Notes under the pieces: generated by a model
What the model saw: only the letters and a program-made list of their open reading frames with translations
Databases searched by the model: none
What the model was told of the DNA's origin: nothing
Position numbers and translations under genes: made by a program
Assembly (NCBI GenBank): GCA_903873995.1
Contig: CAIQQQ010000099.1
Span: forward strand, 1 to 33,863
DNA from: an uncultured Rhodospirillales bacterium
GTDB lineage: Bacteria > Pseudomonadota > Alphaproteobacteria > Acetobacterales > Acetobacteraceae
Length of the DNA: 33,863 nt
Direction of reading: 5' to 3'
In this document: piece by piece, positions 536-12,151 of the stretch
How positions within the stretch are numbered: the stretch's first letter is position 1
Layout: each line of letters begins with the position of its first letter

Positions 536-1393
536 TTATTTCTCTCGCGTGACCATATTTCCTGCTGCTGCCACTAGCCGGTCCAAAACAAAACCGACAA
601 GCCCGACGTAGATGAGGGCCACGATGATGTCGGAGATATTGGAGCTGTTCCAGGCGTCCCAAATAAAGAACCCAATCCCGACGCCACCGATCAGCATCTC
701 GGCCGCAACGATCGCGAGCCAGGACAGTCCGATGCCGATGCGCAGCCCGGTGAAGATGTAAGGGGCGGCGGACGGCAGAACGATCTTGGCGAAGTAGCCG
801 ACACCGCGCAGGCGGATGACACGGGCGACGTTGCGATAGTCCTGCGGCACGTTGCGGACGCCGACGGCGGTGTTGATGATCACGGGCCAGATGGCGGTGA
901 TGAAGATGACGAAGATCGCAGACGGCTGGGCCTCGCGAAAGCCGGCAAGCGCCAGCGGCAGCCAGGCGAGCGGCGGGACGGTGCGCAGCACCTGGAAGAT
1001 CGGATCGAGCCCGCGCATGGCGATCGCCGATGTGCCGACGAGCATGCCGAGCGCGATGCCCACGATGGCGGACAGGCTGAAGCCGAGGGCGACGCGCTTG
1101 AGGCTGGCGAACAGATGCAGGCCGAGGCCTTTGTCCAGCCCGCCGCGGTCATAGAACGGGTGGAGAATCAGCTCGCGCGAATCTGTCCAGATCTTGCTGG
1201 GCGCGGGCAGGGAAGAGGACGGCCGGTCGGCTGCGATCTGCCAGACGCCGATGATCAGCACCAGCATCACGGCCAGCGGCAGGATGTCCCGCCCCCAGGC
1301 ATAGGCGGTGCGCCCGAGCCAGGCGAGACCGGCGCGGGGTTGTGGGCCTGTACCTGAGGGGGCCAGCGCCAGGCTGCGAAGGGTGCTGCTCAT
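536..1393 (-). CDS. nrtB: ABC transporter permease, NrtB/SsuC/CmpB type
   Basis: ORF 536..1540; likely ATG at 1393 (MSSTLRSLALAPSG). Hydrophobic; contains the EAA-type region NVARVIRLRGVGYFAKIVLPSAAPYIFTGLRIGIGLSWLAIVAAEML. Confidence 0.9.
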   Translation of the reverse strand: MSSTLRSLALAPSGTGPQPRAGLAWLGRTAYAWGRDILPLAVMLVLIIGVWQIAADRPSSSLPAPSKIWTDSRELILHPFYDRGGLDKGLGLHLFASLKRVALGFSLSAIVGIALGMLVGTSAIAMRGLDPIFQVLRTVPPLAWLPLALAGFREAQPSAIFVIFITAIWPVIINTAVGVRNVPQDYRNVARVIRLRGVGYFAKIVLPSAAPYIFTGLRIGIGLSWLAIVAAEMLIGGVGIGFFIWDAWNSSNISDIIVALIYVGLVGFVLDRLVAAAGNMVTREK

Positions 1394-1403
1394 GGTCTGG
1401 TCC

Positions 1404-2681
1404 TCAGGCCTGGAGTTTCTTGATGGACTGGCCGGCGAGCCAGGCGGCCGGGTTGGCCGGATCGAACACCTTGCCGTCGAAGAACGTCTCGACCCCGCGG
1501 GAGGTGCCGACGGGCATGTCGGATGCGGCCACACCGGCAAGGGTTGCTGCGCTCCGCCAGATGTCCTCGCGGTTGACGGCTGCGACCATCGCCTTGGTAT
1601 TCGTCTCCTGGCCGAGCACGCCCCAGCGGATGTCTTCGGTGAGGAACCAGAGATCGTGCGACTGGAACGGGTAGCTGGCGTGATCGGCCCAGAATTTCAT
1701 GCGCAGATCGCTGCCGGCGGCGTGGCGGCCATCGCCGTAGTCGATGTCACCTTTGGAGCGCGGCAGGATGTCGGCCGGCGGCACGTTGAACCAGGCGCGC
1801 TTCCCAAGGATCGCCGCAAGCTCCTCCTTGTTCTCCAGCCGATCCGCCCAAAGCTGCGCCTCAATGACGGCGGCGGTGAGGGCCTCGGCCGCCTTGGGGT
1901 TTTTCGCCACCCAGTCCGCTCGCATGCCGAGCGACTTCTCGGGATGGTTCTTCCAGATCTCGCCGGTGACGCAGGCGGTGTAGCCGAGCGACTGGTGGAC
2001 AAGTTGGTCGTTCCACGGTTCGCCCACGCAGAACGCGTCCATGGTGCCGACCTTCATGTTGGCCACCATCTGCGGCGGGGGGACGACGATAGTCTGGACG
2101 TCCTTGTCCGGATCGATGCCGCCGGCGGCGAGCCAGTAGCGGAGCCACAGGTCATGGGTGCCGCCGCGGAAGGTCATGGCGACCTTGATGTCGGACTTGC
2201 CGGCAAAGATCGGCTTGAGCGGCGCCACATCCAGCCGGGCGCTGGAGGCGAGATAGGATTTGGCGACGCTGATGCCTTGGCCATTGACGTTGAGGCGAGC
2301 GAGGATCGCCATCGGCACGGTCTGGCCGTTCTGCACGATCTTGCCGGCCTGAAGCAGATACGGCATCGGTGTGAGGATGTGCGCGCCATCGATCCCGCCG
2401 GCGCCGCCGCCGAGCACGAGGTTGTCGCGCGTGCCGCCCCAGCTCGCCTGCTTCACGACCTCGACATCGGGCATGCCGTATTTGGCGAACAGGCCGCGCT
2501 CCTTGGCCACGATCAGGGGCGCTGCGTCGGTGAGCGCGATGTAGCCGAGGGTGGCCTTGGTGGTTTCAGCGCCGGTTGCGGCCAGGGCGCCGCGGGGCAG
2601 GGTCAGGCGGGCGGCGGTCAGCAGGGCTGCCGTGGCGCCCAGCGCATTGCGGCGGGTAAGGCCAGCGGTGGTTCTGGTCAT
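1404..2681 (-). CDS. nrtA: CmpA/NrtA-family ABC transporter substrate-binding protein with twin-arginine-type signal
   Basis: ATG at 2681: MTRTTAGLTRRNALGATAALL... then GYIALTDAAPLIVAKERGLFAKYG...VVKQASWGGTRDNL, typical of the NrtA/CmpA family. Overlaps the nasS stop by 4 nt. Confidence 0.88.
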   Translation of the reverse strand: MTRTTAGLTRRNALGATAALLTAARLTLPRGALAATGAETTKATLGYIALTDAAPLIVAKERGLFAKYGMPDVEVVKQASWGGTRDNLVLGGGAGGIDGAHILTPMPYLLQAGKIVQNGQTVPMAILARLNVNGQGISVAKSYLASSARLDVAPLKPIFAGKSDIKVAMTFRGGTHDLWLRYWLAAGGIDPDKDVQTIVVPPPQMVANMKVGTMDAFCVGEPWNDQLVHQSLGYTACVTGEIWKNHPEKSLGMRADWVAKNPKAAEALTAAVIEAQLWADRLENKEELAAILGKRAWFNVPPADILPRSKGDIDYGDGRHAAGSDLRMKFWADHASYPFQSHDLWFLTEDIRWGVLGQETNTKAMVAAVNREDIWRSAATLAGVAASDMPVGTSRGVETFFDGKVFDPANPAAWLAGQSIKKLQA

Positions 2682-3853
2682 GGGGTCAGGTCTCCAGGTA
2701 GGGCAGGAAGGGCGGGGGGAACGGGTGCGATGCCGGCGAGTGGGGCTGCGCGCTGCCAGATGTCCGGTCGCCAGATGGCGGCGGCCAGGTTGGCTGGGAA
2801 GGTGTCGACTTGACCCCAACGCTGCATCTGTCGGGCCCACCAGGCGCCATGCTCGGGGTGCGGATACGTTGCATCCGGGTGGAACTGCAGGCCGGGAACG
2901 GCGGTGGGGGCTTCGTCCGGCGCCATCACGAGGCGGCGGGACAAGGCAAGGGCGATGATTTCGCGCGGCACATCCGGCAGCGCGTGATCATGAACGATGC
3001 GCGTCGCGTCCTCCAGATGGCCGGGTTCGGACAGCCAGATCCCGGCCTCGATGATGGATGCGACCAGCATCTCGATCTCGGCCGGGTCCTGCGCGAGGCG
3101 GGCGGCGCTGACGGCGAGCACCTTTTCCGGGTGATCGCGCCAGATATCGGCGGTGGTGAGCGCGATACGCCCGCACCGCAGATCGACAGCGCGCGACCCC
3201 CACGGCTCGCCGGCACAGAAGCCGTCGATGCGGCCGTTCGCCAGTTCCTCGGCCACCTTGGGCGGGGGCACGACAACCAGACGAACATCGCGCTCGGGAT
3301 TGATGCCGCCTGCGGCGAGCCAGTGGCGCAGCAGATAGGTGTGGGACGAATAGGCGTAGACGACCGCGAGCGTGGGGGGCGTGCGCCCTGCTGTGCGGCG
3401 GGCGGCGAGGGCCAGGGCCAGGGCTGCGGCGGGCAACGGGCGTATCGCGGCAAGGTGGGGGGCGGCTGAGGTCATCTCGTTCATCAGCGCGTCGGACAGG
3501 GTGATGGTGTTGCCGTGGCGCGCGAGGGTGGCGACCACGGCGAGCGGGGGGCCGCCCGCCATCGCGCGCCCGGTCGGCGCCTGGGCCAGTCCGAGGCTGG
3601 CGGCGATCGGCATGGGCGACAGCATCTGCCCGCCATCCAGAGCGCCGAAGGCGATCCGGTCGCGCATCGCCGACCAGGCCTGCATGCGGCTGAGCCCGAC
3701 CCGCAGTCCATGCCGCGCGAACAGGCCCAGCGCGTCCGCTACCAGCAATGGGGCAGCGTCGGTCAGCGGAACGAAGCCCAGCGTGATCGCGGCGTTTGCC
3801 GGAATGCGCGCGGTTCGCGCTGGCTCAAGGGTCTGCGGGTCGGCCAGGGTCAC
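2678..3853 (-). CDS. nasS: NasS-like cytoplasmic nitrate-sensing NrtA paralog
   Basis: NrtA-like protein (ITLGFVPLTDAAPLLVADALGLFARHGLRVGLSRMQAWSAMRDRIAFG) without an evident export signal, directly downstream of an ANTAR regulator. The longest ORF starts at 4045. A GTG at 3853 preceded by GGAGGA is the more plausible start. Confidence 0.8.
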   Translation of the reverse strand: MTLADPQTLEPARTARIPANAAITLGFVPLTDAAPLLVADALGLFARHGLRVGLSRMQAWSAMRDRIAFGALDGGQMLSPMPIAASLGLAQAPTGRAMAGGPPLAVVATLARHGNTITLSDALMNEMTSAAPHLAAIRPLPAAALALALAARRTAGRTPPTLAVVYAYSSHTYLLRHWLAAGGINPERDVRLVVVPPPKVAEELANGRIDGFCAGEPWGSRAVDLRCGRIALTTADIWRDHPEKVLAVSAARLAQDPAEIEMLVASIIEAGIWLSEPGHLEDATRIVHDHALPDVPREIIALALSRRLVMAPDEAPTAVPGLQFHPDATYPHPEHGAWWARQMQRWGQVDTFPANLAAAIWRPDIWQRAAPLAGIAPVPPALPALPGDLTP

Positions 3854-4115
3854 GTGAGCGGGCTCCTCCCACGTGCCGGGGGCGCGTGTGGGTTGGGAGC
3901 GGGCCGCCATTGGACCGCTGAAAGGACGGGGGACTGACGCGTGCTCCATCGCCATTGATGGGCACGGCCTGGCGCGAGCCAGGAAACCAGACCTTGAGTG
4001 ACAAGCAAGCTTCGTACCAACCGGATCGGCCCACCGATGAGGCATTTTCGGAGGGGCGCTTGTAAACGGAAAGATTAAAAATAGGTCTTTTGCCCGAAAT
4101 CGATGATTTTGCCTA

Positions 4116-4694
4116 TCATAGAGGCAGTCCGGCCAGCGCGATCACGCTGTCCGCAACGTCCGCAAGACGCCTGCCCTGGTCCATCGCAAGCCGCCGCAGC
4201 GCGCGATAGGCCTCCTCCTCGCTCATCCGGCGTGTCTGCATCAGCACACCCTTGGCCCGTTCGATGAGCTTGCGCTCACTCAAGGCCTTGCGCGCCTCGG
4301 CAAGCTCGGCGCGCAAGGCCTGGTAAGCCCGGAACCGCGCCACTGCCACATCGATCACAGCGCGCACCCGGCCGGGTTGCAGCCCCTCGATGACATAGGC
4401 GGCCACCCCCGCCTCCATCGCAGCCGCGATGCTGGCAGGGTCGGCGTGATCCACGAACATGACCACCGGGCGCGGCTCGTCGCGGTTGAGGGCGCGCATG
4501 CTCTCAATGGCGTCACGCGAGGCATGGTCGAGGTCGCACACGATCACATCGGCGCGGGCGGCGCGCACCTGCGCGACAAGATCGGCATGATCGGGGATAA
4601 GGGCTGCGACCGTGCAGCCATCGGCCGTCAATCCGGCGGTGACGGCCGCGGCCCGCTCGGCGTTGTCATCGATCAACAGCACCCGCAGGTTCAT
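4116..4694 (-). CDS. nasT: NasT-like response regulator with C-terminal ANTAR RNA-binding domain
   Basis: Receiver-like N-terminus MNLRVLLIDDNAERAAAVTAGL; C-terminal RKLIERAKGVLMQTRRMSEEEAYRALRRLAMDQGRRLADVADSVI is a clear ANTAR signature. Confidence 0.9.
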   Translation of the reverse strand: MNLRVLLIDDNAERAAAVTAGLTADGCTVAALIPDHADLVAQVRAARADVIVCDLDHASRDAIESMRALNRDEPRPVVMFVDHADPASIAAAMEAGVAAYVIEGLQPGRVRAVIDVAVARFRAYQALRAELAEARKALSERKLIERAKGVLMQTRRMSEEEAYRALRRLAMDQGRRLADVADSVIALAGLPL

Positions 4695-4711
4695 CCACAA
4701 CCACTCCGGCC

Positions 4712-4787: not shown

Positions 4788-5417
4788 TCAACCTGCCGAA
4801 GCCCTGGCCTGCTCCAGCACCGCGTCCAACGTCCGTGCCGAAATCTCCAGCACCTTCGCATCCCCGGTCACCATCAGCGCTGCGGTCGCGCCGTCGATGA
4901 TCAGCATCACCTGCCGCGCCACCAGTCCGGGCTCGGCAAATGAGGCAGCCCGCGTGCGCTCCTCCAGGAACGCCAGGATCTGCCGGTGATGATCCGAAGC
5001 GAGGTCCCGAAGCACCGGCTCAGCCATGGCGTGCTCGGCCGTCGCGTTCATGAAAGCGCAGCCATGGAACCGCCCGCCGTGAAACCACGCCGCCAAGGTC
5101 GGGATCACGCGGCGCAGCTGCGCAACCGGGTCCGGCTCCCCCTGCGTCACCGCGGCAAAGAACCCCGCCCGCCAATCCGCACCCTCGCGCAGCAGAACCT
5201 CGCGGAGCAACGCGTCCTTCGACCCGAAGCGGGTGTAAAGCGACATCTTTGATGCCGAGGCCACAGCCAGAATCCGGTCGATCCCTGTGGCATGGATCCC
5301 CTGGCTGCAGAACAGGTCGCGCGCTGCGCCCAAAATTCGTTCGGAGGCGGACAGATTTTCGGCAGGCTCGGCGCCGGCCAGCGGAACGGCGGCGAGATCT
5401 TGAGCAGCTTGTTTCAT
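4788..5417 (-). CDS. TetR/AcrR family transcriptional regulator
   Basis: SERILGAARDLFCSQGIHATGIDRILAVASASKMSLYTRFGSKDALLREVL is a TetR-type HTH. Divergent from the osmC operon. Confidence 0.92.
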   Translation of the reverse strand: MKQAAQDLAAVPLAGAEPAENLSASERILGAARDLFCSQGIHATGIDRILAVASASKMSLYTRFGSKDALLREVLLREGADWRAGFFAAVTQGEPDPVAQLRRVIPTLAAWFHGGRFHGCAFMNATAEHAMAEPVLRDLASDHHRQILAFLEERTRAASFAEPGLVARQVMLIIDGATAALMVTGDAKVLEISARTLDAVLEQARASAG

Positions 5418-5624
5418 CGTCCCCACTCGATCGCCCGAAATATGGGCATATGCACATTCATATTGCGCAACTCACGCTCTTTCTGCGGCACCCGGAGCCA
5501 CACACGGCCGGCTGCCACACAACGCAAATAACGCACCGACGCCGGACGCCGCGTCAATCCGCTCTGGCGCAGCGATACGGCCGAGATCGTCCTCACTGGC
5601 ACGGTTCTTGGGAATAACACCACA

Positions 5625-5640
5625 GACAGAACGGTCTGTC
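5625..5640. promoter_or_regulatory. Candidate TetR-family operator (inverted repeat)
   Basis: GACAGA-ACGG-TCTGTC; also reads as ACAGAC-AGAACG-GTCTGT (5623-5640). Sits in the tetR/osmC divergent region, ~45 bp upstream of the osmC start. Confidence 0.55.
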
Positions 5641-5683
5641 CGATCCCGATGCGCGCCAACGCGCCACGCCGCAGGAGTTGCTT

Positions 5684-6247
5684 ATGAGTGATGCCGTCAC
5701 CACCAACCCCCCTTCCGCCCCCGCCACTGCCATGATCGGCTGCCTGGCGCCGATCGACCGGACCGGGCTGGAAGACCTCATCGCCAAGGGCCGCGCCAAT
5801 CCGCAGGCGATCAAGACGCTCAAATGCACCACCATCGCCGAAGGGCGCTTTCGCCACCTCAACATGATCCGCGACCTGCCGCCCTATATCGTGGACGAGC
5901 CGCCGGGATTGCTGGGGGATGACACCGCGCCCAACCCCTCGGAGGCATCGCTTGCCGCCCTCGGCTCCTGCCTTGCCGTCGGGATCCACGCCAATGCCGT
6001 CTCGCGCAAGATCGTCATCCGCAAGCTCGAACTGAAGCTCGAGGCGGACATCAACATCACCGCCGTCTGGGGCACCGGTGACACCTCCCCCAAGCCCGTT
6101 GGCTTTGACGCTGTCCGCGTGAAGGTCGATCTCGAGGCGGATGCGCCCAAGGAAGAGCTCGACGCGCTGATCGTCCACGCCACAAAGTGGTCTCCGGTTG
6201 CCAACACCTTCATGAAGCCCGTGGGCGTCCAGGTGGAGGGCCTCTGA
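5684..6247 (+). CDS. OsmC/Ohr-superfamily protein
   Basis: AGGAG upstream of ATG 5684; PNPSEASLAALGSCLAVGIHANAVSRKI and HATKWSPVANTFMKPV match the two OsmC motif regions. Confidence 0.82.
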   Translation: MSDAVTTNPPSAPATAMIGCLAPIDRTGLEDLIAKGRANPQAIKTLKCTTIAEGRFRHLNMIRDLPPYIVDEPPGLLGDDTAPNPSEASLAALGSCLAVGIHANAVSRKIVIRKLELKLEADINITAVWGTGDTSPKPVGFDAVRVKVDLEADAPKEELDALIVHATKWSPVANTFMKPVGVQVEGL

Positions 6248-7383
6248 TGCAGACCGGGCTCGCGCACGCAGAAGCCCACGCGCCTGCGATGGACCGGACA
6301 GCCTTGCTGGCCGGCATCAGCGTGCGGGCCCGGGCCGATCTGCCGTCCTTGGTCGAAAGCATCGACCAGGACGGCCTATACCCCCGTCAGACAATGCGGG
6401 CGCTGGGGCAGGATGGCCTGTTCTCCGCCCATCTCGCAGGTGCCACAATGCTGGCCCGCCCCGATCTTGGCGCCGCCATCCAGGCGATGGCCGCCGTTGG
6501 CGCCGAGTGCATGTCCACCGCCTTCTGCACCTGGTGCCAGGACGCCAGCGGCTGGTATCTGGAGCACACGGCCAACACGGCGCTGCGCGCGCGGCTGCAG
6601 CCGGAGATCGCCAGCGGCGCCGTCATGGCGGGCACCGGCATGTCCAATCCGCTCAAGACCTTCTCCGGCATCGAGGGCTTCAAGCTCAAGGCGAAGCGTG
6701 CAGACGGCGGCTACGTCGTCTCCGGCGTGCTTCCCTGGGTCTCCAACCTCGGCGACGGTCACTGGTTCGGCACCGTGATGCAGGACGCGGATGACGATGC
6801 CCACCAGTTCTTCGCCATGGTGCAATGCGGCCAGCCTGGTGTGGAGATCCGCCAGAACGCCCGCTTCATCGCCCTCGAAGGCACCGGCACGTATTCCGTG
6901 CTGTTCCGCCGCGCCTTCATCGCGGACGACATGATGCTGGCCGATCCGGTCAGCGACATGGTCAAGCGCATCAAGCCCGGCCTCATCCTGCTGCAGACCG
7001 GCATGGGCCTTGGCGTGATCGAGGCCTGCATCGGCTTGATGGCGGAGAGCAACCGCACCCACGGCCATGTGAACCAATACCTCGAAAAGGGCGTATCGTA
7101 TTTCGAGGACGCGCGCGACCTGCTGCAATCCGAGATCCTGCATCTCGCCGCCACCCCCACCGAGACAGCGCCCGAGCAGATGCGGGCGGTGCTGACCGCG
7201 CGGCTGCGCACCAGCGAGCTCGCCCTGGACGCCGCCCAGGCCGCCCTGCTGCATGCCGGCTCGCGCGGCTATCTGCACGGATCGCCGGTCAACCGGCGTC
7301 TGCGCGAGAGTTATTTCGTGGCGATCATCACCCCTTCCATCCGCCATCTCCGCAAGGAACTGGCCGTGATGGGGCGGAACTGA
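6247..7383 (+). CDS. Acyl-CoA dehydrogenase-fold flavoprotein
   Basis: ATG overlaps the osmC stop (TGATG). Contains GTGMSNPLKTFSGIEGFKLKAKRADGGYVVSGVLPWVSN (ACAD middle-domain pattern) and a C-terminal RRLRESYFVAIITPSIRHLRKEL in place of the usual YEGT-type region. Confidence 0.8.
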   Translation: MQTGLAHAEAHAPAMDRTALLAGISVRARADLPSLVESIDQDGLYPRQTMRALGQDGLFSAHLAGATMLARPDLGAAIQAMAAVGAECMSTAFCTWCQDASGWYLEHTANTALRARLQPEIASGAVMAGTGMSNPLKTFSGIEGFKLKAKRADGGYVVSGVLPWVSNLGDGHWFGTVMQDADDDAHQFFAMVQCGQPGVEIRQNARFIALEGTGTYSVLFRRAFIADDMMLADPVSDMVKRIKPGLILLQTGMGLGVIEACIGLMAESNRTHGHVNQYLEKGVSYFEDARDLLQSEILHLAATPTETAPEQMRAVLTARLRTSELALDAAQAALLHAGSRGYLHGSPVNRRLRESYFVAIITPSIRHLRKELAVMGRN

Positions 7384-7691
7384 TGCCCAGTGTTGTCATC
7401 ATCGACCGGACAGGTGCTGCCCATGTGCTCACCGGCAAGCCGGGCGACAGCGTGATGCAGCTTGCCCGTGCCGCCGATCTTCCCGTGCCGGGCGAATGCA
7501 ACGGATCACTTGCCTGCGCCACGTGCCACATGGTGGTCGACCCCGTATGGGCCGATCGCCTGTTGCCCATCAGCGATGACGAGGAGGCCATGCTCGACAC
7601 GGTCTTCACCCTCACCGCGACCTCGCGCCTCAGCTGCCAGATCCGGCTGACCCTGGAGCTGGACGGTCTGCGCCTGTCTCTGCCCGCCTGA
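7383..7691 (+). CDS. [2Fe-2S] ferredoxin (adrenodoxin/ISC-type)
   Basis: ATG overlaps the upstream stop. Translation MPSVVIIDRTGAAHVLTGKPGDSVMQLARAADLPVPGECNGSLACATCHMVV...RLSCQIRL, with C-x5-C-x2-C ... C motif. Confidence 0.9.
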   Translation: MPSVVIIDRTGAAHVLTGKPGDSVMQLARAADLPVPGECNGSLACATCHMVVDPVWADRLLPISDDEEAMLDTVFTLTATSRLSCQIRLTLELDGLRLSLPA

Positions 7692-7719
7692 ACCCATCCC
7701 GCAACCAGGAGCGTATCGC

Positions 7720-8604
7720 ATGTCAGACAAGGTCCTGATCTCGCCTGCCGAACTTGCCGCCATGATCCCCTCTTCGGATGTGGTGGTGATCGACACCCGC
7801 AGCCCCGACGCCTACGCCAGCGGCCACGTGCCTGGGGCGGTGAACCTGTTCGAGGTGTTCACCTTCCTCGCTACCTCCACCCCCGAAGGTGTGACGGAAC
7901 TGCGCGAGACCTTCGCGCGCCATTTCGGCGCCGCCGGCCTGTCCGGCGCCGAGACGGCGGTGTTCATCGAGGAAAGCATGAACTCGGGCTTCGGTATGTC
8001 TTGCCGCGGCTATTTTCTGATGCAGTTCCTGGGCTACCCGAAGGCCATGGTCGTTCATGGCGGCATGGTGGCGTGGAAGGCCGCGGGCCTGTCTGTCACA
8101 ACCGAGGTCCCGGTGGTCGAACCCAAGACCTTCCCTGTTATGGACACCGGACAGGATGTGATCATCAACTACGAGACGATGCTCGCTGCTCTCGGCGACA
8201 GCGACGTGGCGCTGGTCGATGTGCGCGATGTCGATGAGTGGGTCGGGACCTCCTCCTCTCCCTACGGTCCAGATTTCGCCCCGCGCAAGGGCCGCATTCC
8301 TGGCGCGCGCTGGCTGGAGTGGTACCGCATGATGAAGCCGTCGGCGTCAGGCCCTGTGTTCAAGTCCAAGGACGAGATCCTGGCCGAGTGCGCAACCGTC
8401 GGCGTCACGCCGGAAACGCCGGTGTTCCTGTATTGCTTCAAGGGGGCCCGCGCCTCCAACACCCTGGTTGCCCTCAAGGAAGCGGGCATCAAGGACGTGC
8501 GGATGTATTTCGGCAGCTGGAACGAGTGGAGCCGCATGCCGGAACTGCCGATCGAAGCTGGCCTGCCCTTTGCTAAGCCTGACACCGCGCTCGCGGCCGA
8601 CTGA
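7720..8604 (+). CDS. Two-domain rhodanese / sulfurtransferase
   Basis: VVVIDTRSPDAYASGHVPGAVN (domain 1); ALVDVRDVDEWVG...FLYCFKGARASNTLVALKEAGIKDVRMYFGSWNEWSRMPELPIE (domain 2, active-site Cys loop CFKGARA). Confidence 0.92.
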   Translation: MSDKVLISPAELAAMIPSSDVVVIDTRSPDAYASGHVPGAVNLFEVFTFLATSTPEGVTELRETFARHFGAAGLSGAETAVFIEESMNSGFGMSCRGYFLMQFLGYPKAMVVHGGMVAWKAAGLSVTTEVPVVEPKTFPVMDTGQDVIINYETMLAALGDSDVALVDVRDVDEWVGTSSSPYGPDFAPRKGRIPGARWLEWYRMMKPSASGPVFKSKDEILAECATVGVTPETPVFLYCFKGARASNTLVALKEAGIKDVRMYFGSWNEWSRMPELPIEAGLPFAKPDTALAAD

Positions 8605-8614
8605 TCGCGCCAAT

Positions 8615-8653
8615 CGCCACGCGCCGGACCGGTCCGGCGGGTGGCGGATTTTT
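8615..8653 (+). terminator. Strong intra-operon hairpin followed by T-run (terminator/attenuator-like)
   Basis: CGCCAC-G-CGCCGGACCGGTCCGGCG-G-GTGGCG (8615-8646), including a perfect 18-bp palindrome at 8622-8639, then GATTTTT. Confidence 0.65.
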
Positions 8654-8666
8654 CAAGGAACCCTGC

Positions 8667-10010
8667 ATGCCTCTGATCTGCGACCCGTTCGATCCCTCCG
8701 CCACCCATTCCGATGGCTGCGGCTGCGCGGCCCATGGCGGTGTGAGCCAGCTTCAAGGGGCCGACCGCATGGCCCAGATCGTTAACACCGCGGTGCTACG
8801 CGCGGCCTTCCCGAAAGCGACCTCGCGCCGCCGCTTCCTCAAGGCTGTTGGTGCCACCACGGCCGCCGCCGCCCTGGCCGAGCTGTTCCCGCTCGCATCC
8901 GCCACCGCGCTGGCCCAGGACGCCCCCAAGGGGCTCGAAAAACCCAACCTCAAGATCGGCTTCATCCCGATCACTTGCGCCTCGCCGATCATCATGGCGC
9001 AGCCGATGGGCTTCTATGCGAAGCACGGCCTCAACGTGGAGGTCATCAAGACCGCCGGCTGGGCGATCGTGCGCGACAAGGCGCTGAACCGCGAATATGA
9101 CGCAGCCCACATGCTGAGCCCGATGCCGATCGCCATTTCGCTCGGCCTCGGATCGGTGAAGCAAAGCTGGCAGATCCCGGCGATCGAGAACATTAACGGA
9201 CAGGCCATCACGCTTGCCGTGAAGCACAAGGACCGACGCGACCCCAAGACCTGGAAGGGCATGCGCTTCGGCATCCCGTTCGACTATTCGATGCACAACT
9301 ATCTGCTGCGCTACTACCTTGCCGAAGCCGGCCTCGATCCGGACAGCGATGTGCAGCTCCGTGTGATCCCGCCGCCCGAGATGGTCGCCAATCTCCGCGC
9401 CGACAACATCGACGGCTTCCTGGGGCCGGACCCGGTGAACCAGCGCGCCGTGTTCGACGGCGTGGGCTTCATCCACATCCTCTCGCGCGAGCTGTGGGAC
9501 GGGCATCCGTGCTGCTCCTTCAGCTCCTCGGCCGAGTTCGCCCAGGCGAACCCCAACACCTTCCTGGCCCTCACCCAGGCGATCATCGATGCCACCGGCT
9601 TTGCCAACAAGGCCGAGAACCGCAAGCAGATTGCGGACGCCATCGCACCGACCAACTATCTCAATCAGCCGCCGGTTGTGGTCGAGCAGGCGCTGACAGG
9701 CATCTTCGCCGACGGTCTCGGCAATGTCGTGCGCCAGCCGCTTCGCGCCGGCTTCGACCCGTTCCCCTGGGAGAGCTTCGGCGTGTGGATCCTGACCCAG
9801 ATGAAACGTTGGGGGCAGCTCAAGGGCGATGTCGATTACGCCCAGGTCGCAAAATCGGTGATGCTGGCCACCGACGCCCGCAAGCAGATGACGGCGCTCG
9901 GCCTTGCGGCCCCCGCGGCAAACACCAAGACCTTCGTGGTGATGGGCAAGGCGTTCGACCCCGCGACCCCCGAAGCCTACCTGGCGAGCTTCCCGATCAA
10001 GCACGTCTGA
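8667..10010 (+). CDS. CmpA/NrtA-family ABC transporter substrate-binding protein with twin-arginine signal (probable cyanate or related anion)
   Basis: SRRRFLKAVGATTAAAALAELFPLASATALA Tat-like signal; KIGFIPITCASPIIMAQPMGFYAKHGLNVEVIKTAGWAIVRDKALNREYDAAHMLSPMP. Start at 8667 (AAGGA SD) or 8769. Confidence 0.87.
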   Translation: MPLICDPFDPSATHSDGCGCAAHGGVSQLQGADRMAQIVNTAVLRAAFPKATSRRRFLKAVGATTAAAALAELFPLASATALAQDAPKGLEKPNLKIGFIPITCASPIIMAQPMGFYAKHGLNVEVIKTAGWAIVRDKALNREYDAAHMLSPMPIAISLGLGSVKQSWQIPAIENINGQAITLAVKHKDRRDPKTWKGMRFGIPFDYSMHNYLLRYYLAEAGLDPDSDVQLRVIPPPEMVANLRADNIDGFLGPDPVNQRAVFDGVGFIHILSRELWDGHPCCSFSSSAEFAQANPNTFLALTQAIIDATGFANKAENRKQIADAIAPTNYLNQPPVVVEQALTGIFADGLGNVVRQPLRAGFDPFPWESFGVWILTQMKRWGQLKGDVDYAQVAKSVMLATDARKQMTALGLAAPAANTKTFVVMGKAFDPATPEAYLASFPIKHV

Positions 10011-10011
10011 C

Positions 10012-10842
10012 ATGACAAGGTTCGCCGCCCCCTTCCTGTCGATCGTGCTGCTCGCCCTGTTACTGGGCGTTTGGCAGATTTCGGTGCACGACACGCAGCC
10101 AGCCGCTGGGATGGACCCGGAATACGCCAAGCTGATGGGGCTGCAGGCCACCGCCGGCAAATCCGCGATCCCAACGCCGCTCGACGTCGCGGCAAAACTC
10201 GTCCAGGCGATCCGGGATCCGTTCTACGACCACGGGCCGAACGACAAGGGCATAGGCATCCAGCTCGCTTACTCGCTCGGCCGCGTGCTGCTGGGCTTCG
10301 GGCTCGCGATGATCGTGGCAGTCCCGCTGGGCTTCCTGATCGGCATGTCGCCGCTAATGGGTGCTGCGCTCAACCCGTTCATCCAGGTGCTCAAGCCGAT
10401 CAGCCCGCTCGCCTGGATGCCGCTGGCCCTTTACACCATCAAGGACAGCGACCAATCGGCGATCTTCGTCATCTTTATCTGCTCCGTCTGGCCGATGCTG
10501 GTGAACACCGCCTTCGGGGTCTCAGGCGTGCGCCGTGAATGGCTGAACGTCGCACGCACCTTGGAAGTAGGTCCGCTCCGTCGCGCCCTGCGCGTGATCC
10601 TGCCGGCGGCGGCGCCGACGATCTTCACCGGCATGCGTATCTCGATCGGCATCGCCTGGCTGGTGATCGTTGCCGCCGAGATGCTCGTGGGCGGCACCGG
10701 CATTGGCTATTTCGTGTGGAACCAGTGGAACAACCTCTCTCTGGCGGACATCCTGATGGGCATCCTGCTGATCGGCGTGGTCGGCATGGCACTGGATCGC
10801 GCGCTCGCCGCAGCCGCCACGTCCGTCGCGTGGCGCGAGTGA
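10012..10842 (+). CDS. ABC transporter permease, NrtB/CynB type
   Basis: Hydrophobic; LNVARTLEVGPLRRALRVILPAAAPTIFTGMRISIGIAWLVIVAAEMLVGGTGIGYFVWNQWN. Confidence 0.9.
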   Translation: MTRFAAPFLSIVLLALLLGVWQISVHDTQPAAGMDPEYAKLMGLQATAGKSAIPTPLDVAAKLVQAIRDPFYDHGPNDKGIGIQLAYSLGRVLLGFGLAMIVAVPLGFLIGMSPLMGAALNPFIQVLKPISPLAWMPLALYTIKDSDQSAIFVIFICSVWPMLVNTAFGVSGVRREWLNVARTLEVGPLRRALRVILPAAAPTIFTGMRISIGIAWLVIVAAEMLVGGTGIGYFVWNQWNNLSLADILMGILLIGVVGMALDRALAAAATSVAWRE

Positions 10843-11705
10843 TGGCGCATTCCTGGCTCTCCGTTGAAGCCATCGCGCGCAGTTACGGCGCCCGCCCGGT
10901 GTTCCGCGACCTTTCCTTCGGCATCGATCGCGGCGAGTTCGCGTGCCTCATCGGCCATTCCGGCTGCGGCAAGACCACCATCCTCAACATCCTGGCGGGC
11001 CTCGAAGCCCCTGATGCCGGCGTGCTGGTGATGGACGGGCACGAGACCGCCGGGCCCTCGCTCGACCGTGCGGTGATCTTCCAGTCCCACGCCCTCTATC
11101 CCTGGCTCACCGCCCTCGGCAACGTCGCGTTCGCGCTTCGCAGCCGCCACCCCACCTGGTCCCGAACCCAGATCGAGATCCAGGCCCGCGCCGCACTGGC
11201 CACCGTCGGCCTCAAAGACGCCGCCACCCAAAAACCCGCCGAACTGTCCGGCGGCATGAAGCAACGGGTCGGCATTGCTCGCGCCCTCTCCCTCGAACCC
11301 GCTTTGCTGCTGATGGACGAGCCGTTTTCAGCACTCGACGCCCTTACCCGTGGCACCCTGCAGGACGAGGTCTCGGGCCTGGTCGGCGGCGGGCGACAGA
11401 CCGCCTTCATGATCACGCATGACGTGGATGAGGCCATCCTGCTCGCCGATCGCATCCTGCTGATGACCAACGGGCCCGACGCCTGGCTTGCCGAGATCGT
11501 GATCAACACGCTGCCGCGCCCGCGCGACCGGGCCAATCTGCACCGCCAGCCCGGCTATTACCCACTGCGCAACCACATTGTGGACTTCCTGGTGACACGC
11601 TCCAGACTGCTGGCCGGCCAGCAGCCCCCAGGCTGGACAGGGCGAGACGTGCCCGAAATTCGCCCTTCCGATTTTCACGAACAACGAGAAAGAGTGCCCG
11701 CATGA
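10842..11705 (+). CDS. ABC transporter ATP-binding protein, NrtD/CynD type
   Basis: In-frame ATG at 10842 (TGATG overlap with permease): GHSGCGKTTILNILAGL, ELSGGMKQRVGIARALSLEPALLLMDEPFSALDALTRGTLQ. Confidence 0.92.
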   Translation: MAHSWLSVEAIARSYGARPVFRDLSFGIDRGEFACLIGHSGCGKTTILNILAGLEAPDAGVLVMDGHETAGPSLDRAVIFQSHALYPWLTALGNVAFALRSRHPTWSRTQIEIQARAALATVGLKDAATQKPAELSGGMKQRVGIARALSLEPALLLMDEPFSALDALTRGTLQDEVSGLVGGGRQTAFMITHDVDEAILLADRILLMTNGPDAWLAEIVINTLPRPRDRANLHRQPGYYPLRNHIVDFLVTRSRLLAGQQPPGWTGRDVPEIRPSDFHEQRERVPA

Positions 11706-12151
11706 ACGACGCCAAGACCGAGCTCGGCCGCAAGCTGCTCAAGATCAAGAAGCAGCATGGCTGGAAATGGTCCGACATCGCCGCCAAACTCGGCCACGCT
11801 CCGGTCTGGACCGCGGCCGCCTGCCTCGGCCAGATGTCCATGACCGAGGAAACCGCAGCCAAGACCCAGACCCTGTTCGGCCTGACTGACGAAGAAGCAG
11901 AGCTCCTTGCCGAAGCCCCCTATCGCGGCTCTCTGCCCACCGCCGTCCCAACCGATCCACTGATCTATCGCTTTTACGAACTGATCCAGGTTTACGGCAC
12001 CACGTGGAAAGACATGATCCACGAGGAATTCGGTGACGGCATCATGTCTGCCATCGATTTCGATATGACCCTGGAACGCCAGCCCGACCAAAAGGGCGAC
12101 CGCGTCAAGCTGACGATGAGCGGGAAGTTCCTGCCTTATAAGAGATACTGA
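11702..12151 (+). CDS. cynS: Cyanate hydratase (cyanase)
   Basis: MNDAKTELGRKLLKIKKQHGWKWSDIAAKLGHAPVWTAAACLGQMSM...VPTDPLIYRFYELIQVYGTTWKDMIHEEFGDGIMSAIDFDMTLERQ, full-length cyanase with catalytic R/E/S region. Confidence 0.97.
   Translation: MNDAKTELGRKLLKIKKQHGWKWSDIAAKLGHAPVWTAAACLGQMSMTEETAAKTQTLFGLTDEEAELLAEAPYRGSLPTAVPTDPLIYRFYELIQVYGTTWKDMIHEEFGDGIMSAIDFDMTLERQPDQKGDRVKLTMSGKFLPYKRY

Follow-up and report, generated by a model that had tools for sequence, protein, structure and literature searches.

A conserved gene set linking an acyl-CoA dehydrogenase-fold flavoprotein to cyanase: a candidate oxidative route from thiocyanate to cyanate in Proteobacteria

The two described enzymes that open thiocyanate were worked out in sulfur-oxidising bacteria. 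One of them, the copper thiocyanate dehydrogenase of the cyanate pathway, is known from Thioalkalivibrio, Thiohalobacter and Afipia (PMC5328954, PMC6504805, PMC8061750); for a thiocyanate-degrading Afipia strain, use of the copper enzyme has only been predicted (PMC8061750). The other, thiocyanate hydrolase, belongs to the carbonyl sulfide (COS) pathway. Heterotrophs of several genera, including Methylobacterium, have also been reported to use thiocyanate as a nitrogen source, as cited in PMC5328954. Cyanate itself is taken up and assimilated in Pseudomonas pseudoalcaligenes CECT5344 by means of the cynFABDS cluster, of which cynABDS is induced by cyanate (PMC6627978). Here, we analyse an operon that ends in a cyanase gene and also encodes a flavoprotein with the acyl-CoA dehydrogenase (ACAD) fold. 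It is located at positions 5684-12151 on the plus strand of a 33,863-nucleotide stretch of DNA (hereafter, the window) from an uncultured Rhodospirillales bacterium (contig CAIQQQ010000099.1, assembly GCA_903873995.1).

Gene neighbourhoods were surveyed for 91 flavoprotein genes of seven families, in stretches of up to 20 kb; loci of named organisms were used in addition. Comparison of the loci shows one conserved gene set, made up of cynABDS and the genes for the flavoprotein, an OsmC or AhpD protein, an electron carrier of the oxygenase type and an enzyme acting on sulfane sulfur, and the same set recurs in several families of the Alpha-, Beta- and Gammaproteobacteria. A chance neighbourhood is ruled out by the recurrent adjacency in the surveyed loci. 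An initial annotation of this DNA had proposed that these genes form a system, and the genes for the flavoprotein, OsmC, the electron carrier, the rhodanese and cyanase do indeed occur jointly in one family after another, contrary to the lack of conserved neighbours that would have refuted the idea. The framing of the flavoprotein by cyanase and sulfane-sulfur enzymes suggests a substrate whose cleavage yields cyanate together with sulfane sulfur, and thiocyanate is the simplest molecule that would do so. In our reading, the genes serve a cytoplasmic, oxidative pathway, coupled to cyanase, in which an S-C-N compound would be split to give cyanate and sulfane sulfur; thiocyanate is the most likely substrate. 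We assign this reading a probability of about one half.

The operon consists of eight open reading frames (ORFs) in the order osmC-ACAD-ferredoxin-rhodanese-cynABD-cynS, as the initial annotation had placed them. Overlaps of 1 nt, in the form TGATG, are present at 6247 (osmC/ACAD-like), 7383 (ACAD-like/ferredoxin) and 10842 (permease/ATPase), and the ATPase and cynS genes overlap by 4 nt at 11702, confirming the tight packing described earlier. The osmC gene starts at the ATG at 5684, which is preceded by AGGAG, a good ribosome site.

The defining gene of the system (6247..7383, plus strand) encodes the ACAD-fold flavoprotein, which we propose as the oxygenase acting on the S-C-N substrate. 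A family profile built from 17 members was run on 399 genomes of the phylum; the orthologues scored at least 411 bits and all other proteins at most 199 bits. These ACAD-like proteins are one sharply bounded family of their own, with carriers in Mameliella, Fluviibacterium, Pseudothioclava, Methylobacterium, Methylocystis, Pseudosulfitobacter, Marinobacter, Acetobacter, Caballeronia and Moraxella. The AlphaFold2 model of the window protein (pLDDT 91.7) has a confident acyl-CoA dehydrogenase fold. Foldseek matched it to acyl-CoA dehydrogenases with TM scores up to 0.85 at 14-19% identity, and its matches include the nitrososynthase KijD3 (3m9v). The Pfam Acyl-CoA_dh_N score of 26.3 is barely over the cut-off of 22.9, and no curated ACAD subfamily cut-off was reached, the best NCBIfam score being 40 bits against 650.

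The FAD-binding motif (W-[IV]-[ST]-N type) is retained, with P163-W164-x-S166 invariant. According to the sequence alignment, the Glu376-type catalytic glutamate is absent: acyl-CoA dehydrogenases read R[ED]A..IYEG where this family reads RE.YFVAI.TP or close variants, and the whole segment (RR.RE.YFVAI.TP..KHL) has no acid at that place. The alternative Glu254-type position also lacks an acid in the alignment, the corresponding helix segment being KxGFILLQTGM. E143 and E354 are the sole invariant acids of the family. Judged by its sequence, the protein is a flavoenzyme, not an acyl-CoA dehydrogenase. A role in ordinary acyl-CoA metabolism is ruled out by the missing catalytic base together with the lack of recurring CoA enzymes in the neighbourhoods. 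An orphan member of the family, on a very long branch and with none of the usual neighbours, occurs in Helicobacter saguini. A separate group of ACAD-like proteins, 25-31% identical, is encoded at loci L012-L016, where the genes adjoin ABC importer genes, and on the Synechococcus elongatus plasmid pANL (NC_007595.1 17882-18718); this group is probably another sulfur-acquisition flavoprotein.

The most constant partner of the flavoprotein is the OsmC-like protein (5684..6247, plus strand; PF02566, 64 bits). An osmC or ahpD-like gene adjoins the flavoprotein gene in 89 of the 91 loci, the remaining two being on cut contigs, and in six loci osmC is replaced by an ahpD-like gene whose CxxC is intact. 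Cys98 of OsmC (numbered in the 189-residue ORF starting at 5678) is kept in 103 of 103 relatives, and the second OsmC/Ohr cysteine is replaced by W, Y or F in the motif [WYF]-S-P-V. This OsmC is assigned to the OsmC fold family and is predicted not to be a two-cysteine peroxidase. Peroxide defence by OsmC is unsupported, as the second cysteine is missing.

The third gene (7383..7691, plus strand) encodes a [2Fe-2S] ferredoxin of the ISC/adrenodoxin type (Fer2, PF00111, 35.7 bits; TIGR02007, 56 bits, below cut-off), whose four cluster cysteines are invariant in 12 of 12 sequences. An electron carrier or reductase is located near the flavoprotein gene in 40/91 loci. The partners alternate between a [2Fe-2S] ferredoxin, a lone rubredoxin (L173), a rubredoxin fused to an NADH:rubredoxin-reductase-like domain, and an HcaD-type ferredoxin reductase. 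The window operon contains a ferredoxin and no NAD(P)H reductase; some relatives have the HcaD-type reductase, which in two of them (L047 and L094) is accompanied by a ferredoxin-like gene. Ferredoxin, HcaD-type reductase, rubredoxin and rubredoxin reductase are the usual suppliers of oxygenases. Since the partners are of the oxygenase type, a flow of electrons to the flavoprotein and from there to O2 is favoured. The ferredoxin had been considered the electron handler of the system; we retain its role as a carrier, not as a unique component, because it is one of several interchangeable partners.

The Neisseria gonorrhoeae chromosome filed as a plasmid (L056) and a locus of the same clade (L095) have an AhpD-like gene next to a flavoprotein gene whose product is 39% identical to that of the window, and L056 also has a rubredoxin-reductase-like piece. 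At both loci, osmC, rhodanese, importer and cynS are all absent nearby, and the genome of L095 is without any cynS.

The link with sulfane sulfur comes from the rhodanese gene (7720..8604, plus strand), which encodes a two-domain sulfurtransferase (PF00581, 112 bits) with the active loop CFKGAR. Its presence was scored at an identity of at least 61% to the window's rhodanese. Of the 80 genomes with the flavoprotein, 43 have it, compared with 0 of 76 control genomes, the controls being related genomes listed without a flavoprotein match and not a random draw. In a 200-genome sample of the phylum, all five rhodanese matches are in flavoprotein-carrying genomes. Cys95 and Cys239 are invariant in 62 of 62 sequences, and cynS is present in 41 of the 43 rhodanese-carrying genomes. 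Six loci that lack the rhodanese have a persulfide dioxygenase (PDO) of the Blh/ETHE1 kind inside or directly behind the operon, and one of the six (L135) reads, in a single run, sigma54 regulator-osmC-ACAD-rubredoxin reductase-cynABDS-PDO. Strict exclusivity of the rhodanese to the flavoprotein system is weakened by relatives of 47-63% on plasmids of Paraburkholderia, Caballeronia and Nostoc, with no flavoprotein nearby. Close relatives adjoin a persulfide dioxygenase on the Paraburkholderia phymatum and Caballeronia grimmiae plasmids, the latter locus further holding an ArsR-type regulator, YeeE, TauE and a molybdopterin oxidoreductase; these two loci are sulfide or persulfide units without the flavoprotein.

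The rhodanese is also what might suggest a cyanide oxygenase, with the flavoprotein turning cyanide into cyanate while the rhodanese, a classic cyanide-detoxifying enzyme, serves as a parallel cyanide trap. A monooxygenase giving cyanate from cyanide has been postulated, not demonstrated (PMC11049912). The product would be cyanate, and the electron partners are of the oxygenase type. However, cyanide requires no importer, the constant single-cysteine OsmC would have no role, and the persulfide dioxygenase that replaces the rhodanese removes the sulfane sulfur on which a cyanide trap would depend. We consider this explanation very unlikely.

At the other end of the operon, cynS (11702..12151, plus strand) encodes a clear cyanase, as had been annotated: its score of 172 bits for TIGR00673 passes the equivalog cut-off of 113 (Cyanate_lyase, 125). 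It is the sole cynS in the 4.1 Mb genome assembly, and the active-site residues R90, E93 and S116 are conserved in 48 of 48 relatives. A cynS gene was found in 67/80 flavoprotein genomes versus 32/76 related genomes without the flavoprotein (stratified p about 1e-7). The difference is strong in three families and vanishes in the fourth, a large one (f171), where cynS is common regardless (20/22 versus 16/20). For 39 of the 67 cynS-bearing flavoprotein genomes, cynS is located within 20 kb of the flavoprotein gene. On the tree of the flavoprotein, cynS adjacency must have changed 17 times or more; the association therefore re-forms or is lost repeatedly and does not reflect one inheritance.

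Between the rhodanese gene and cynS, the plus strand encodes a Tat-exported CmpA/NrtA-type substrate-binding protein (CynA-like; 8667..10010; NMT1_2, 284 bits; TAT signal at residues 52-71), an ABC permease (CynB/NtrB-like; 10012..10842; BPD_transp_1; TIGR01183, 226 bits, passing the cut-off of 209) and an ABC ATPase (CynD/NtrCD-like; 10842..11705; ABC_tran; TIGR01184, 269 bits, just under the cut-off of 292). The order NrtA-type binding protein-permease-ATPase-cynS matches that of a cynABDS cassette. Permeases of the window's kind (type 1) are accompanied by cynS in 26/26 loci with full flanks, and the importer therefore belongs to the cynABDS cassette and may import cyanate. The initial annotation had assigned it to uptake of the sulfur compound, which is not clearly the case. 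Its view of a cyanate-generating operon for S-C-N compounds is thus largely supported by the link of the gene set to cyanase and sulfane-sulfur enzymes, the importer excepted. An odd feature of the binding protein is an N-terminal cysteine motif ahead of the Tat signal, a PFD..AT...C.C...H-like stretch encoded within 8667-8770 of the window and 10522-10620 of L060 (Caballeronia sp. SBC2).

In other lineages, a type 2 importer (SsuA/TauA-like, sulfonate-like) precedes osmC; about a quarter of the core-bearing loci have this type, usually without cynS. In many Burkholderiaceae-type loci, cynABDS forms a separate divergent operon. These arrangements would suit two separate functions without a common intermediate: a sulfur-acquisition module of osmC, ACAD, electron carrier and rhodanese, related to operons of the SfnB/sulfonate type, next to an ordinary cynABDS, which is a known stand-alone unit and is whole in the 26 loci mentioned above. 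Yet the adjacency recurs well above chance across several families, both halves form one closely packed gene run in the window, and in Marinobacter, Mameliella and Pseudothioclava cynS is located directly behind the core, with cynABD absent. Separate functions thus seem quite unlikely to us.

The type 2 importers also bear on the nature of the substrate, as do DsbA/kappa-GST-like proteins (annotated as 2-hydroxychromene-2-carboxylate isomerase), which are encoded beside the core at 9929-10531 of L054 and in eight surveyed loci and make a glutathione-linked step possible. Both would fit organic S-C-N substrates (isothiocyanates, organic thiocyanates or thioureas) that are taken up for sulfur and opened by the flavoprotein to cyanate and sulfane sulfur, and lineages devoid of cynS could then take the sulfur alone. 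The importer of the window is, however, of the small-anion CmpA/NrtA/CynA type, and the surveyed neighbourhoods show no recurring hydrolase or carbon-chain enzyme. We regard organic substrates as unlikely.

For the thiocyanate route, the observations are the gene associations, the missing ACAD base and the missing second OsmC cysteine, and from these we infer all chemical steps. Electrons from NAD(P)H would pass via the ferredoxin (rubredoxin or rubredoxin reductase in relatives) to the ACAD-fold flavoprotein, whose reduced flavin would, with O2, oxygenate thiocyanate, yielding hypothiocyanite or an equivalent species. OsmC could capture this product on its single cysteine as a mixed disulfide, Cys-S-S-CN, hydrolysis of which at the carbon would release cyanate and leave a cysteine persulfide. 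The rhodanese, or the persulfide dioxygenase in other lineages, would remove the sulfur, and CynS would convert cyanate into CO2 and ammonia. The importer adjoining cynS would supply or retrieve cyanate and may admit thiocyanate too. In this specific form, a ferredoxin/rubredoxin-dependent flavoprotein thiocyanate monooxygenase would provide a third route, this one cytoplasmic, in Alpha-, Beta- and Gammaproteobacteria. It would be coupled to cyanase and pass through a thiocyanate-derived mixed disulfide formed on an OsmC with one cysteine. We put it forward tentatively, as somewhat less than an even bet.

Several points weigh against the thiocyanate route. The direction of electron flow, the use of O2 and the hypothiocyanite step are deduced, and about half of the loci have no electron carrier nearby. 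Some loci have neither a rhodanese nor a persulfide dioxygenase. Moreover, 13/80 flavoprotein genomes are without cynS, mostly ahpD or type 2 importer variants lacking the rhodanese; the 13 include every lineage with ahpD and a type 2 importer, and three genomes of one genus, among whose loci are near-copies (97-98%) of that of Methylocystis iwaonis. In such cynS-less lineages, either cyanase does not receive the product or a different substrate is used. A simple story of thiocyanate as nitrogen source does not account for lineages that bear the core but have no cynS or rhodanese. The family may include members for another sulfur compound, with the substrate varying among lineages.

A TetR-family regulator is encoded divergently from the operon (4788..5426, minus strand; TetR_N, 43.8 bits), and its orthologues (55-66%) stand divergent from osmC in related loci of the same bacterial family. 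The gap between tetR and osmC contains a conserved inverted repeat, ACAGACAGAACGGTCTGTCC (5622..5641), a probable TetR operator located roughly 40 bp ahead of the ATG of osmC. An exact 17-mer of this operator occurs once in the window versus 0.06 expected. Versions with at most three mismatches are present between tetR and osmC in 45/59 TetR-type loci, with almost none elsewhere in those loci. This recurrence in the tetR-osmC gap indicates that the operon has its own conserved operator, and the TetR protein would be a local repressor. The gene inventory of the initial annotation holds for the eight genes, and it had overlooked the divergent regulator and the operator. A scan for sigma70 promoters gave no match. 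Sigma54 regulators adjoin relatives carrying rubredoxin reductase. Directly upstream, the minus strand at 536-4700 encodes an ABC permease, an NrtA-type binding protein, a second NMT1_2 protein and an ANTAR-domain response regulator. This arrangement resembles a cluster for nitrate uptake under control of the NasS-NasT type, which places the operon in a nitrogen-acquisition neighbourhood.

In the open-access literature, we found no paper describing this gene set, and none in which a cluster of this kind combines cyanase with OsmC or rubredoxin. The operon shares with cynFABDS of P. pseudoalcaligenes the NrtA/CmpA-type ABC importer, the cyanase and the order A-B-D-S. That cluster, however, lacks a flavoprotein, an OsmC, a ferredoxin and a rhodanese, and it is under the sigma54 activator CynF, whereas the window operon is fronted by a tetR gene and operator. 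The sulfide-oxidation units with ETHE1, Blh or PDO handle sulfur with the same enzymes, as on the Caballeronia grimmiae plasmid, where a 60% identical rhodanese is encoded beside PDO, TauE, YeeE and ArsR-type genes, but they lack the flavoprotein, an OsmC of the operon's type and cyanase. ACAD-fold flavin monooxygenases (DszC, the HpaB/HsaA oxygenase components and KijD3) likewise employ the acyl-CoA dehydrogenase fold for oxygenation. They use free reduced flavin from a flavin reductase, whereas the operon genes point to a ferredoxin or rubredoxin donor, and there is no sequence closeness. If our proposal is correct, the flavoprotein would be, to our knowledge, the first ACAD-fold enzyme fed by ferredoxin or rubredoxin. 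It also defines a bounded family that is now annotated only as acyl-CoA dehydrogenase and that, by its residues, should not be one.

Neither copper thiocyanate dehydrogenase nor thiocyanate hydrolase was found among the scanned window proteins, the rest of the genome not having been searched for either, and both enzymes are unrelated proteins (PMC5328954, PMC6504805). The gene set is a testable candidate for the genes by which heterotrophs draw nitrogen from thiocyanate and could account for part of the cyanase genes of heterotrophs. If correct, the proposal is relevant to thiocyanate clean-up and to the cycle of S-C-N compounds in soil and plants. Thiocyanate hydrolase also opens thiocyanate, but does so hydrolytically, with three subunits, to COS and ammonia. 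Copper thiocyanate dehydrogenase would yield the same products as expected here, cyanate and zero-valent sulfur. It is, however, a periplasmic, Tat-exported enzyme that passes electrons to cytochrome c, whereas the flavoprotein has no visible signal peptide, is paired with ferredoxin or rubredoxin genes and is encoded beside cyanase. The operon would, if our reading holds, represent a third thiocyanate-opening route, unrelated to both thiocyanate dehydrogenase and thiocyanate hydrolase.

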